Source: Vicinamibacterales bacterium (GTDB lineage: Bacteria; Acidobacteriota; Vicinamibacteria; Vicinamibacterales; 2-12-FULL-66-21). Taken from it: 64,000 nt of DNA. Position numbers and translations under genes: made by a program. The DNA is taken from positions 1 through 64,000 of the forward strand of contig DASSPH010000066.1 of the NCBI GenBank assembly GCA_035699745.1. The letters run 5' to 3'. Below the pieces are notes generated by a model. The model was not told the DNA's origin and searched no databases. It saw nothing but the letters and a program-made list of their open reading frames with translations. Shown here piece by piece: positions 57,442-64,000 of this stretch (its first letter is position 1; each line of letters opens with the position of its first letter).

Positions 57442-57454
57442 CTGACCCCACCCA

Positions 57455-57915
57455 AGGCGAGCGGAGCAGGCCGTCTTCCACCCGGCCTGACAGGGAGGCG
57501 AAGCGAGTGTCGCTGCCCGACAGGGAGCGCAGCGACCCGCCTTCCACGCTGCCCGACGGCGAGCGCAGCGAGCGCCCCTTCCACCCTGCCCGACCGCGAG
57601 CGAAGCGAGTGTCCCGTCCCTGCCCGACAGGGAGCGAAGCGACCCTCCTTCCACCCGGCCCGACGGCGAGCGCAGCGAGCGCCCCTTCCACCCTGCCCGA
57701 CAGCGAGCGCAGCGAGTGTCCCCGTCCCTGCCCGACAGCGAGCGAAGCGAGTGTCCCTGTCCCGGCCCGACGGCGAGCGAAGCGAGTGTCCCCGTCCCTG
57801 CCCGACAGCGAGCGCAGCGAAGCCCCTTCCACCCTGCCCGACACGGAGCGAAGCGACCCCCCTTCCACCCGGCCCGACAGCGAGCGAAGCGAGTGTCCCC
57901 GTCCCGGCCCGACCC
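57455..57915. repeat. Array of ~35-bp degenerate repeats (right, plus orientation), 12 units
   Basis: Twelve units with the core CCCGACAGCGAGCGAAGCGA G and one of two linkers, TGTCCCCGTCCCTG-like or CCCCTTCCACCCTG-like, about 34-37 bp each, preceded by one degenerate unit. It begins 13 bases after the TIM-barrel stop and fills most of the 549-base gap to the DUF4142 gene. The remaining ~75 bases show only a GGAGG ribosome binding site. Unit order alternates irregularly between the two linker types. Confidence 0.92.
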
Positions 57916-57990
57916 CGCTGAGGTCAGCGCGTTTGCAACCAATCGCGCGTGTGGACATCAGTTCTCAGGAATTCAGCGGAGGTTAGGCAG

Positions 57991-60585: not shown

Positions 60586-61248
60586 CTATAGCAAACGGGC
60601 GAGCGCGCGCGCGGCCGCTTCGTCCTCGAAGCGCGCGTGAACCTCCTTGACGCCGGTGCCCGCGACGATTGCGCGAACGTTGTGAGCGCGAACGCCGCCG
60701 CCGGCCAGAACCGTGACCCGATCGGCCGACAGGCGCACCAGCACCGCGAGCCGCTCCATCCCCTCGAGCGCCGTCTGCGCGCCGCCCGACGTCAGCACCC
60801 GCCGCACGCCGCTGCTGACGAGATCCTCGACCGCCGCACGCTGATCGCGCACCTCGTCGAACGCCCGGTGAAACGTCACCGGCAGGCCGGCGGCGGCTTC
60901 GACGACGCGCCGTGTGCGCGCGACGTCGACACGATGGTCCGCGTGCAGAAGACCGGTCACGATCCCTTGCGCGCCCCGGGCGCCGGCCGACGCGGCGTCA
61001 CGCAGCATGCCGGCGACCTCGCGGTCGCTGTAGACGAAATCCCCGGCGCGCGGGCGGATCATGACGAACACCGGGATCGACACGCGCGCGGCAACCGCGG
61101 CGACGAGGTCGAGCGGAGGCGTGACCCCGCCGGCGCCGAGATCGACACACAGCTCCAGCCGGTTGGCGCCGCTCCGCTCCGCCGCCACCGCCGCCTCCGT
61201 CGTCTCGACGACGCATTCGAGGAGTGTGCCCACGTTCGGCTCCATCAT
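60586..61248 (-). CDS. cutC: CutC-family copper homeostasis protein
   Basis: 220 residues, TIM-barrel CutC family: LLECVVETTEAAVAAERSGANRLELC (split as SGANRLELC), DLGAGGVTPPLDLV, VFVMIRPRAGDFVYSD, GIVTGLLHADHRVD, VTFHRAFDEV, VRRVLTSGGAQTALEG, VLAGGGVRAHNV and KEVHARFED. All conserved blocks are present. The family is linked to copper tolerance in eukaryotes and some bacteria, but the enzymatic role is unsettled. ATG at 61248 or 61245. Divergent from the amidase gene, upstream of the ABC exporter. Confidence 0.92.
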   Translation of the reverse strand: MMEPNVGTLLECVVETTEAAVAAERSGANRLELCVDLGAGGVTPPLDLVAAVAARVSIPVFVMIRPRAGDFVYSDREVAGMLRDAASAGARGAQGIVTGLLHADHRVDVARTRRVVEAAAGLPVTFHRAFDEVRDQRAAVEDLVSSGVRRVLTSGGAQTALEGMERLAVLVRLSADRVTVLAGGGVRAHNVRAIVAGTGVKEVHARFEDEAAARALARLL

Positions 61249-61261
61249 CGGCCAAACGGTG

Positions 61262-61303: not shown

Positions 61304-63772
61304 ATGAAGCGCGCTTTCCTCACCGCCGCATTCGTCGTGGCCGCGGTCGTGCTGTCTCGCGCCACGACCCGGCTCCCCTCCGCCGACGGACAGTTCTGGG
61401 ACATCCAGGACACGTCGCCGTGGGCGCAGGACAGCGGCGGGATTGCGACCGGCGGCGGCGCGAATCCCTTCAACGGCTTCGGCTACCTGAAGCTCGCGGT
61501 GCGCACTGCCGCGGGCGCGTCGCTGGCGCACAACGTCTACCTCAGCGGCTTCGGTCTCGCGCACGACGGCGCCGAGCGCTTCGATTCCATCACGCCCGCA
61601 TTCGTGGCCGGCGTCGCGATCGACCGCGGCATCTTCGCGCCGCGGGACACCAATTACCTGCGCTACGTCGACACGTTCACGAACATGACCGCCGAGACCA
61701 GAGTCGTGCGCGTCGCGTGGGGCGGCGCGGCGGGCGCCTACGAAGACGGCGGCCGCGTCGCCATCGTCACGACGGGCAGCGGCGATCGCACCATCGATGC
61801 GTCGGACGGCTTCGTCACCGTCATGCAGAACGCGACCGGCGCCGCCGACCCGGCGCGCGGGCCGTCCGGGCACGGCCCGTCGGCGCACGTGCTCGGGTCG
61901 CGCGCCGCGGGCACGCTGGCCCGCGCAGGGGACATGTATGCGGATCCGTTCACGAACGCGTGGCCCGGCTACGACCCCGCGCACATCGGCTACGTCTTCG
62001 CGCTCACGCTGCGGCCGGGGGAATCCGCCTCGCTGATGACGTTCGTGGTGAAAGGGCTGAGCGAGGTGTACGACCCGCGCGGCGGGTTCCCGATCGCGCT
62101 GAAGGACGCGCTGGTCGCGCCGAAGAACGCGGCGCCGTACGGCGGGCCGTCGCCGCAGATCCCGGCCGCCGGCTCGCAGATCGCCGCGGTCACGCAGACG
62201 GCACGCCGCCTGCTCGCCGAGCCGGATGTTCGAGGGCTGACGCCGCGGCAGCGCAGCAGGCTGATCAACTGGCCGCGCATCGCTCCGGCGCCCGTCCCGT
62301 TCACGGTGGTCGAGAAGACTGCCGCCGAGTTGCAGGCGGCGATGACGCGCGGCGACACGACCGCCGAGGATCTGGTGCGCGAGTATCTGGTGCGCCTGGC
62401 GGCCTACGATCGACACGGGCCGCGGCTGCGATCGATGCTGGCGCTGAACCCGCGCGTCGTCCACGAGGCGCGGACGCTCGACGCCGAGCGGGCGGCCGGG
62501 AAGGTGCGCAGCCCGCTGCACGGCGTGCCGGTCGCGTTCAAGGACAACATCGACGTCCTCGGCCTGCCGACCACCGGCGGCGCGCTCGCGCTCGTCGAGC
62601 ACCGGCCGCGGCTCGATTCGCGGGTCGCGGCGGGCATGCGCCGCGCCGGCGCGGTGATCCTCGGCAAGACCAATCTCGACGAGTTCCCGTTCGGCGATTT
62701 CGGCATCAGCAGCGTGGGCGGCACGATCGGCAACGCCTACGATCCCTCGCTCAGCACGGCAGGATCGAGCGGCGGCAGCGCCGTCGCCGTGTCGCGGAGC
62801 CTGGTGACGCTGGGGTTCGGGACCGACACCTGCAACTCGCTGTCGAATCCGGCGGCGTTCGCGTCGCTGGCGACGATCCGGACCACGCGCGGATTGACCA
62901 GCCGCGCCGGCGTCATGCCGCTCAACACGTTCAACGACGCCGTCGGGCCGATGGCGAAGTCGGTGCGTGAGGTGGCGCTGGTCCTCGATCAGGTGACCGG
63001 CGCCGACCCCGAAGACCCGGCTACGGAGGCGGCGGCGGCGCATACCGGCGCGTCGTTCGCGGCGGGCCTCGACGCGGCGTCGTTGAAGGGGAAGCGGATC
63101 GCGGTGCTGCGGCAGTTGTTCGTCGGCGTGACCGGCGAGCGCGAAGCCGCGGCCATGATGGAGCGGGTCGTCAAGGAACTCCGCGCCGGCGGAGCGACCG
63201 TGGTCGACGCCACGATCCCCGATCTCGACGGCGAATACCGCCAGGCGCGAGGGAGCGCGCCCGGATCGCTCGAGGCAGGGTGGACGGCATATCTCACGCG
63301 CGGTTCGAAGAGCGGCGATCGCGTGCTGACGATCGAGGACCTCATCGCGTCGGGCAGGATGGCGCCCGACGGCACGCGGCGCCTGCAGGACGCGCTGCGC
63401 AGCAGCGCCGAGGGGGAGCGGGGACGTCTCGCCACCGAGCGGTTCCTTGCCGGCCGCACGCGCTTCCGGCAACTGTTCGAGGCGGTGCTGGAGCGCGAGC
63501 GCGCCGACGCGCTGCTCTATCCCGCCAACCAGGCGCGGCCGCACACGCACGAAGGGGGCCTCGAGCGGTACGGCGGCGAGCCCGGCACCTGCGAACCGAG
63601 CGCGATGACGGGCCTGCCGCAGGTCACCGTTCCCGCCGGCTTCCTCGGCGGCCGCCATCCATTCGGCATCTCGTTCCTCGGCCGTCTGTGGTCGGACCGC
63701 GACCTGCTCGCGCTCGCCCACGCCTACGAGCAGGCGACGCACCATCGCCGGGCGCCCGGCACCGCCAAGTGA
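61304..63772 (+). CDS. Exported amidase-signature enzyme with a large N-terminal domain
   Basis: 822 residues. Signal peptide (KRAFLTAAFVVAAVVLS), then a ~300-residue N-terminal domain of unknown function (DGQFWDIQDTSPWAQDSGG ...), then an amidase-signature domain. The catalytic triad is inferred as K413 (VAFKDNID), cis-Ser S488 (TAGSSGGSAVAVS) and S512. The nucleophile motif, normally DTGGSIR, reads DTCNSLSNPAA, so the two oxyanion-hole Gly are Cys510 and Asn511. It may hydrolyse amides or esters in the periplasm; the reaction is unproven. GTGA overlap with the next transporter. Confidence 0.85.
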   Translation: MKRAFLTAAFVVAAVVLSRATTRLPSADGQFWDIQDTSPWAQDSGGIATGGGANPFNGFGYLKLAVRTAAGASLAHNVYLSGFGLAHDGAERFDSITPAFVAGVAIDRGIFAPRDTNYLRYVDTFTNMTAETRVVRVAWGGAAGAYEDGGRVAIVTTGSGDRTIDASDGFVTVMQNATGAADPARGPSGHGPSAHVLGSRAAGTLARAGDMYADPFTNAWPGYDPAHIGYVFALTLRPGESASLMTFVVKGLSEVYDPRGGFPIALKDALVAPKNAAPYGGPSPQIPAAGSQIAAVTQTARRLLAEPDVRGLTPRQRSRLINWPRIAPAPVPFTVVEKTAAELQAAMTRGDTTAEDLVREYLVRLAAYDRHGPRLRSMLALNPRVVHEARTLDAERAAGKVRSPLHGVPVAFKDNIDVLGLPTTGGALALVEHRPRLDSRVAAGMRRAGAVILGKTNLDEFPFGDFGISSVGGTIGNAYDPSLSTAGSSGGSAVAVSRSLVTLGFGTDTCNSLSNPAAFASLATIRTTRGLTSRAGVMPLNTFNDAVGPMAKSVREVALVLDQVTGADPEDPATEAAAAHTGASFAAGLDAASLKGKRIAVLRQLFVGVTGEREAAAMMERVVKELRAGGATVVDATIPDLDGEYRQARGSAPGSLEAGWTAYLTRGSKSGDRVLTIEDLIASGRMAPDGTRRLQDALRSSAEGERGRLATERFLAGRTRFRQLFEAVLERERADALLYPANQARPHTHEGGLERYGGEPGTCEPSAMTGLPQVTVPAGFLGGRHPFGISFLGRLWSDRDLLALAHAYEQATHHRRAPGTAK

Positions 63773-64000
63773 GCCGGACATCAGCGCCGGGGGCCGAGAG
63801 ACTGCCGCTGCCGGGCGCGTACAAGTGGCACGTCGTCGCCATGCTGTGGTGCATCTCGTTCTTCAACTACGCCGACCGGCAGGCGATCTTCTCGGTCTTC
63901 CCGCTGCTCGAGCGCGAAATGCAGCTGACCCCGGTGCAGCTCGGGCTGCTCGGTTCGGGATTCGCGTGGGTATACGGGCTCGCGGCGCCGTTCGCCGGCG
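63769..64000 (+). CDS. MFS transporter, N-terminal part (cut by window edge)
   Basis: GTG at 63769 overlaps the amidase stop by four bases (GTGA). The 77 visible codons include a short cytoplasmic leader and a first transmembrane helix with MLWCISFFNYADRQAIFSVF, then LEREMQLTPVQLGLLGSGFA. This is the opening of spinster/anion:cation-symporter-like MFS proteins. Co-expression suggests it moves the amidase substrate or product. Confidence 0.82.
   Translation, partial: MSRTSAPGAERLPLPGAYKWHVVAMLWCISFFNYADRQAIFSVFPLLEREMQLTPVQLGLLGSGFAWVYGLAAPFAG

Follow-up and report, generated by a model that had tools for sequence, protein, structure and literature searches.

An exported two-domain amidase of the Vicinamibacterales with a DTCNS motif, a probable active-site disulfide and a predicted beta-supersandwich front domain

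The amidase gene close to the end of the 64,000-nucleotide stretch of DNA analysed here (the window) raises the question of whether an amidase-signature (AS) enzyme carrying Cys-Asn before its nucleophile serine is still a hydrolase, and of what the approximately 330 residues upstream of the amidase domain in this 822-aa protein contribute. On the basis of its directly observed anatomy, clade, triad and cysteine pairing pattern, together with its predicted folds, we consider it probable that the protein is an exported Ser-cisSer-Lys hydrolase with a Cys510-Cys763 disulfide and a supersandwich front domain. Its catalytic machinery would be an ordinary one placed in an exported protein, combined with a probable disulfide at the active site and with a front domain that has no name.

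Gene anatomy, export and genomic context

The coding sequence occupies positions 61304..63772 of the forward strand, on which all the protein features given below also lie, and encodes 822 aa plus a stop from an ATG start. The mechanical open reading frame list starts this frame at 61061, while the start at 61304 yields the signal peptide common to the relatives. The N-terminus, MKRAFLTAAFVVAAVVLSRA, is a Sec-type signal peptide (aa 1-20, 61304..61363), with Lys-Arg, a hydrophobic stretch and a small residue at the likely cleavage site, which reads A-VT in most orthologues. Signals were called with a crude in-house hydrophobicity rule, not SignalP, and this rule was passed by 25 of the 26 rows with a placeable cleavage site in the 27-row orthologue alignment. 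The exceptions are L025, which fails, and L027, which has no site, the starts of both having been set inside the gene. The protein thus looks exported, as the first-pass annotation had proposed. The mature chain would begin with an N-terminal domain (approximately aa 21-314, 61364..62245) followed by the AS domain (approximately aa 333-820, 62300..63763).

Only one Pfam family, PF01425, is matched in the protein, at 249.3 bits against a cut-off of 27, with residues 356-802 covering the full profile (1-445). The best NCBIfam model, the amidase equivalog NF006006 / PRK08137, scores 367.4 bits, below its cut-off of 534. For the predicted model, the 50 structural matches listed are all AS enzymes covering all or most of the amidase half (Z 29.0-39.2). 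The genome holds seven AS genes, and the nucleophile motif could be read by pattern in six of them.

The GTG at 63769-63771 overlaps the stop TGA at 63770-63772, and the downstream frame (63769..64000, forward strand, continuing beyond the end of the window) is an MFS_1 transporter. The overlap claimed previously is therefore real, but it is not a feature of the family: at E 1e-5, the flanks of 37 orthologue loci yielded no MFS relative (several flanks being short or cut, and some loci representing one genome twice), and neither did those of 17 further loci (14 from the clade of the window enzyme and three from the QTGDS lineage described below, partly the same records). Since no transporter was found in these flanks, an MFS operon was rejected as a hint to function. 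No widely shared neighbour emerged from the 31 loci compared, where the widest cluster (seven) is the antisense of the amidase gene itself and the next ones cover five. The amidase gene behaves as a single unit. Approximately 50 bases from its start lies a divergent CutC-family gene (60589-61254, reverse strand; L085:4590-5255). As a common neighbour, CutC was discarded, nearly all matches being to the antisense of the amidase start contained in an over-long CutC query; at one locus (L014) CutC is possibly a true neighbour of the orthologue. Elsewhere in the window, around 57450-57960, there is a repetitive intergenic stretch with near-repeated peptides in several frames.

The neighbouring genes offer no hint to the substrate, which leaves room for the idea that the protein forms amides or transfers acyl groups instead of hydrolysing. 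Such AS enzymes exist, ClbL joining two intermediates according to the excerpted text of PMC10478638. ClbL, however, belongs to an NRPS-PKS pathway, whereas the window gene has no conserved neighbour, and activated acyl partners would be scarce outside the cell for an exported protein. We therefore regard this reading as very improbable.

The catalytic triad and the residues preceding the nucleophile

The residues and coordinates proposed from the sequence for the active site were confirmed, and align with the AS motifs of PAM: Lys413 (62540..62542), cis-Ser488 in GSSGGS (62765..62767), Cys510 (62831..62833) and Asn511 (62834..62836), at positions -2 and -1 of the nucleophile, and the nucleophile Ser512 (62837..62839). 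PAM, from Stenotrophomonas maltophilia (1m21, 1m22, 5ac3), is the best PDB match (E 1.7e-75 for 5ac3 and 3.1e-73 for 1m21), and superposes on the amidase domain with Z 39.2 and 2.8 A over 451 residues at 34% identity (33-36% overall range). Both share the same triad, and PAM also lacks Gly-Gly, its motif being ETDGS (Asp-Gly). In contrast to the window protein, the PAM chain begins at the amidase domain, without a supersandwich, and has neither DTCNS nor the 510/763 cysteine pair. By sequence and fold, the PAM nucleophile corresponds to Ser512, and not to another Ser or Gly-Gly motif. In the whole-protein prediction, the active-site loops (residues 458-490 and 511-517) are too poorly modelled, with pLDDT under 50, for the active site to be read from it.

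The motif DTCNSLSNP is invariant in 27/27 aligned orthologues with 64-74% identity. In a tree of 71 amidase domains, from which the motif columns were excluded, all 30 DTCNS rows form one branch with a support of 100/100, and the triad is aligned in each of these 30 members. Three orthologues come from metagenome-assembled genomes titled as other phyla. The Cyanobacteria title (L030) looks like a binning error, because its amidase domain is identical to that of an acidobacterial genome (G167); the Pirellulales (L017) and Steroidobacteraceae (L026) titles may represent transfers or binning errors.

The wider comparison comprised 134 rows, namely relatives chosen for their similarity to the window protein, 60 further regions from the top of the list and three QTGDS loci; seven exact duplicates and matches covering under 380 query residues were left out before counting. 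A set chosen in this way is no census of the AS family. The Lys, the cis-Ser and the Ser are kept in 134/134, and the triad is therefore full throughout a set in which the two preceding positions show nine and six residue types, respectively: Cys (53), Gly (46), Asp (27), Asn (2), Phe (2), Ser, Met, Thr and Arg (one each) at -2, and Gly (64), Asn (56), Asp (7), Ala (3), Ser (2) and Thr (1), with one row unread, at -1. These counts were taken as aligned, and the few Phe and Arg rows may be misaligned. Consequently, the Gly-Gly that the first-pass annotation took as invariant is not so, as also seen in PAM (ETDGS), 5ewq (ETTGS) and 4gyr (DTAGS). Gly, Asn and Asp tolerate a left-handed backbone, and their presence at -1 in 127/134 relatives would fit, from general protein chemistry, a strained, left-handed residue in this loop.

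According to the excerpted accounts, the oxyanion in UMG-SP2 is bound by the main-chain amides of Ile187 and Gly188 and, more weakly, contacted by Ser190 (PMC11708778), and the oxyanion hole of FAAH is Ile238-Gly239-Gly240-Ser241 (PMC4481349). These places correspond to Thr509 to Ser512 in the window protein. As the AS oxyanion hole is described there as made of backbone amides (PMC11708778), the side chains at these positions would not be the donors; and since a backbone amide can act as donor whether or not its residue is glycine, the Cys-Asn substitution is no argument for a dead enzyme.

A pseudo-enzyme, or one of strongly altered specificity, in which the change from Gly-Gly to Cys-Asn disables the oxyanion hole and leaves amide binding or another role, would account for a pair of changed positions right at the nucleophile and for a motif that is both invariant and clade-specific, and the function could have passed to the added domain. 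On the other hand, the Lys, cis-Ser and Ser are aligned in the 30 clade members as well as in the 134 relatives, these two positions are free to vary, as PAM and other enzymes show, and the oxyanion donors are backbone amides in the excerpted description (PMC11708778). Moreover, conservation of the amidase half is no lower than that of the front half in the codon-position comparison, where third positions vary approximately twice as much as first positions and two to three times as much as second positions, in both protein halves and in 4/4 pairs compared, as would be expected of a protein under selection. We thus consider a disabled or strongly altered enzyme unlikely. The earlier annotation correctly took the motif as the mark of a clade, but its suspicion of a dead enzyme on this basis was mistaken: with the triad intact in 134/134, backbone donors, and both positions variable in many lineages including PAM, loss of hydrolytic activity does not appear to follow from the motif. 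It is very likely, judging from the sequence comparisons, that the window enzyme is a working amide hydrolase of a PAM-like branch of the AS family.

A cysteine pair at the oxyanion loop

The cysteine of the motif comes with a constant partner. In the clade of the window enzyme, Cys510 and Cys763 (63590..63592) are the only cysteines from approximately residue 28 to the end in 27/27 aligned members. More generally, all 53 relatives with Cys at -2 have a Cys within one column of 763, compared with 2/81 of those without it, and each of the 53 amidase domains with Cys510 holds exactly two cysteines; the two rows with Cys763 but without Cys510 are of the DTGGS/DLGGS types and have four and nine cysteines. 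Fisher's test on this pairing gives 1.8e-35, on rows that are related by descent. Indeed, Cys510 requires two changes on both the 134-row tree and the 117-row tree (the latter built without the DTGGS/ETGGS rows and seven rows on long branches), and the AU test does not reject a single origin (p-AU 0.331). On these trees, the 53 paired rows go back to just one or two evolutionary events.

Plasmid relatives from other phyla behave similarly. Among 18 of them (taken for taxonomic spread from 40 listed, out of 129 records with a match), Cys510 occurs in two, both haloarchaeal DTCSS sequences and both with the partner cysteine, as against 0/16 of the others; one of the two has four cysteines. In the combined set, both cysteines are present in 55/55, in the exact column in 53/55, and as the only two cysteines in 54/55. 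Two other haloarchaeal plasmid sequences (L208 and L210) carry DCGGS, with the Cys at -3, plus a Cys in the C-terminal segment that elsewhere holds 763, and in L208 these are the only two cysteines.

Outside the clade, the pair is found in an unnamed sister lineage of exported DTCGS/DTCSS amidases, with acidobacterial, Actinomadura and haloarchaeal examples. These resemble the window enzyme in their amidase domain (approximately 36-44% identical), triad, cysteine pair and mostly signal-like N-termini, and differ at -1, where they have Gly or Ser in place of Asn; no supersandwich is seen in them, because the matches begin at approximately residue 325. By the crude rule, signal-like N-termini are present in 46/53 relatives with the pair, seven failing, versus 36/81 without it. 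One haloarchaeal sequence with the pair (L203) has no evident signal peptide at its annotated start. Other AS subfamilies have recurring cysteine pairs of their own: 653/711 (29/32 each), 682/696 (5/5) and 486/515 (22 and 23/40), the last flanking the cis-Ser and the nucleophile. The genome of the window also encodes VKOR and thioredoxin-like domains within one 411-aa frame (G000 contig C17, 13919-15049), a fusion that is a known kind of disulfide-forming machine. No PDB chain with the DTCNS motif was seen among the matches listed (up to five per search).

The simplest reading of these patterns would be a Cys510-Cys763 disulfide by which the C-terminal wall of the active site braces the oxyanion loop, and we hold this to be likely from the sequences compared. 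The two cysteines could instead act as thiols, in a metal site, as a reactive or redox-sensing pair, or with a catalytic Cys, given that the alignment places both near the active site and that they are strictly co-conserved. Nevertheless, a protein with an export signal and exactly two cysteines is a typical case of a structural disulfide, none of the triad residues is altered, and no further conserved Cys or His cluster was seen as far as looked for, making functional thiols improbable in our assessment.

Under the favoured disulfide, the enzyme would work as follows. Sec export would remove aa 1-20, and oxidation outside the cytoplasm would join Cys510, a residue of the oxyanion loop, to Cys763, which lies in the segment EPGTCE-SA-TGLP ahead of the C-terminal part of the AS fold; the resulting disulfide would brace the loop. 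The oddity of the DTCNS motif would then be structural, because the proposed disulfide holds the loop in place. Asn511 would fill the loop position that is Gly, Asn or Asp in most relatives, Lys413 and cis-Ser488 would activate Ser512 as in other AS enzymes, the oxyanion would be held by the backbone amides around Thr509-Ser512, and the acyl-enzyme would be resolved by water. More broadly, it is a testable idea that exported AS amidases use disulfides specific to each lineage to brace their catalytic loops. A bolder extension, which we offer as a long shot, is an activation lock: with Cys510-Cys763 reduced in the cytoplasm, the loop would be loose and the amidase off, and export with oxidation would set the oxyanion hole and turn it on; exported AS enzymes would have invented such staples repeatedly (510/763, 486/515, 653/711 and 682/696), while secreted enzymes and giant surface proteins would share, in the supersandwich, a new module for holding substrates.

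The N-terminal front domain

The extra N-terminal region pointed out from the sequence is a real domain without a name: aa 1-325 match no Pfam family at E up to 10. Modelled alone, it reaches pLDDT 77.5 and pTM 0.82, and is a predicted beta-supersandwich with a C-terminal helix leading to an N-W motif (aa 322-323) just past the end of the domain. The recurrence of the Ile-x-Asn-Phe/Trp end motif is not independent evidence, because the search pattern was written after the motif had been seen. The best structural match is 9ju0 (Z 16.4, 3.6 A over 233 residues, 11% identity), followed by GH65 (14.3), cyclic glucan synthase (14.2), cellobionic acid phosphorylase (14.2) and GH116 (13.9); overall, aa 18-314 match supersandwiches with Z 13-16, an rmsd of mostly 3.5-6 A and 207-259 residues. 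Foldseek gives E 9.5e-8 to cellobiose phosphorylase, with TM-scores of just 0.28-0.46; its matches include the periplasmic domain of YidC as well. The supersandwich fold of the model is therefore credible, while the fold alone shows no sugar binding, because the YidC domain is also among the matches. The front domains of GH65, GH94, GH116 and cyclic glucan synthase have a similar predicted fold at only 6-16% identity; in contrast to the sugar enzymes, the front domain of the window protein leads into an amidase and not into a sugar-enzyme catalytic domain.

The distribution of this domain is wider than that of the DTCNS clade. It was found in 17/396 genomes of the phylum by single-sequence search and in 30/149 genomes of the order by profile, 25/149 having a near full-length match of the window type; it was not found in the plasmid collection. 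It is fused to two amidase lineages, the DTCNS clade and the QTGDS lineage, of which there are five examples (L086, L099 and L123-L125). The latter has the same domain order and triad, and differs in being approximately 29-35% identical, in having Asp before the nucleophile and in carrying the 682/696 cysteine pair instead. Both lineages group together with SH-aLRT supports of 98 (134 rows), 95 (117 rows) and 66/92 (the careful 71-row tree), a grouping that is unsure because long branches meet. In addition, the domain occurs in a 461-aa protein with no amidase and no Pfam match (L100, 4474-5856), and there are weak matches within very long frames (thousands of residues), either together with CarboxypepD_reg repeats or next to DUF11 (L102 and L104). 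Some relatives (L101-L105) lie in giant open frames of up to 5747 aa, and several copies can occur in one protein. The front-domain profile matched the five QTGDS proteins as well as L100, L102 and L105; it did not match L101, L103 and L104, which single-sequence tblastn alone had matched.

We read the front domain as a general extracellular module. Its most likely role would be to hold the enzyme on, or to present, a large extracellular substrate, although we put this forward tentatively, as a possibility somewhat short of an expectation; for the substrate itself, we would guess peptide-type or polymer-bound amides.

In searches of an open-access library, we found no paper on the DTCNS amidase clade, none of six motif strings and no GatA residues, and, among the matches listed for AS enzymes in combination with disulfides, secretion, a sandwich domain or Acidobacteria, nothing on this amidase family. 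What had appeared as the loss of the oxyanion Gly-Gly becomes a testable structural idea. Since AS enzymes are studied for the breakdown of polyurethane and drugs, according to excerpted sources, a natural way of stiffening the active site may be of practical use. Finally, Pfam has no name for the front domain, a widespread extracellular module, and naming it would aid the annotation of the secreted proteins of Acidobacteria.
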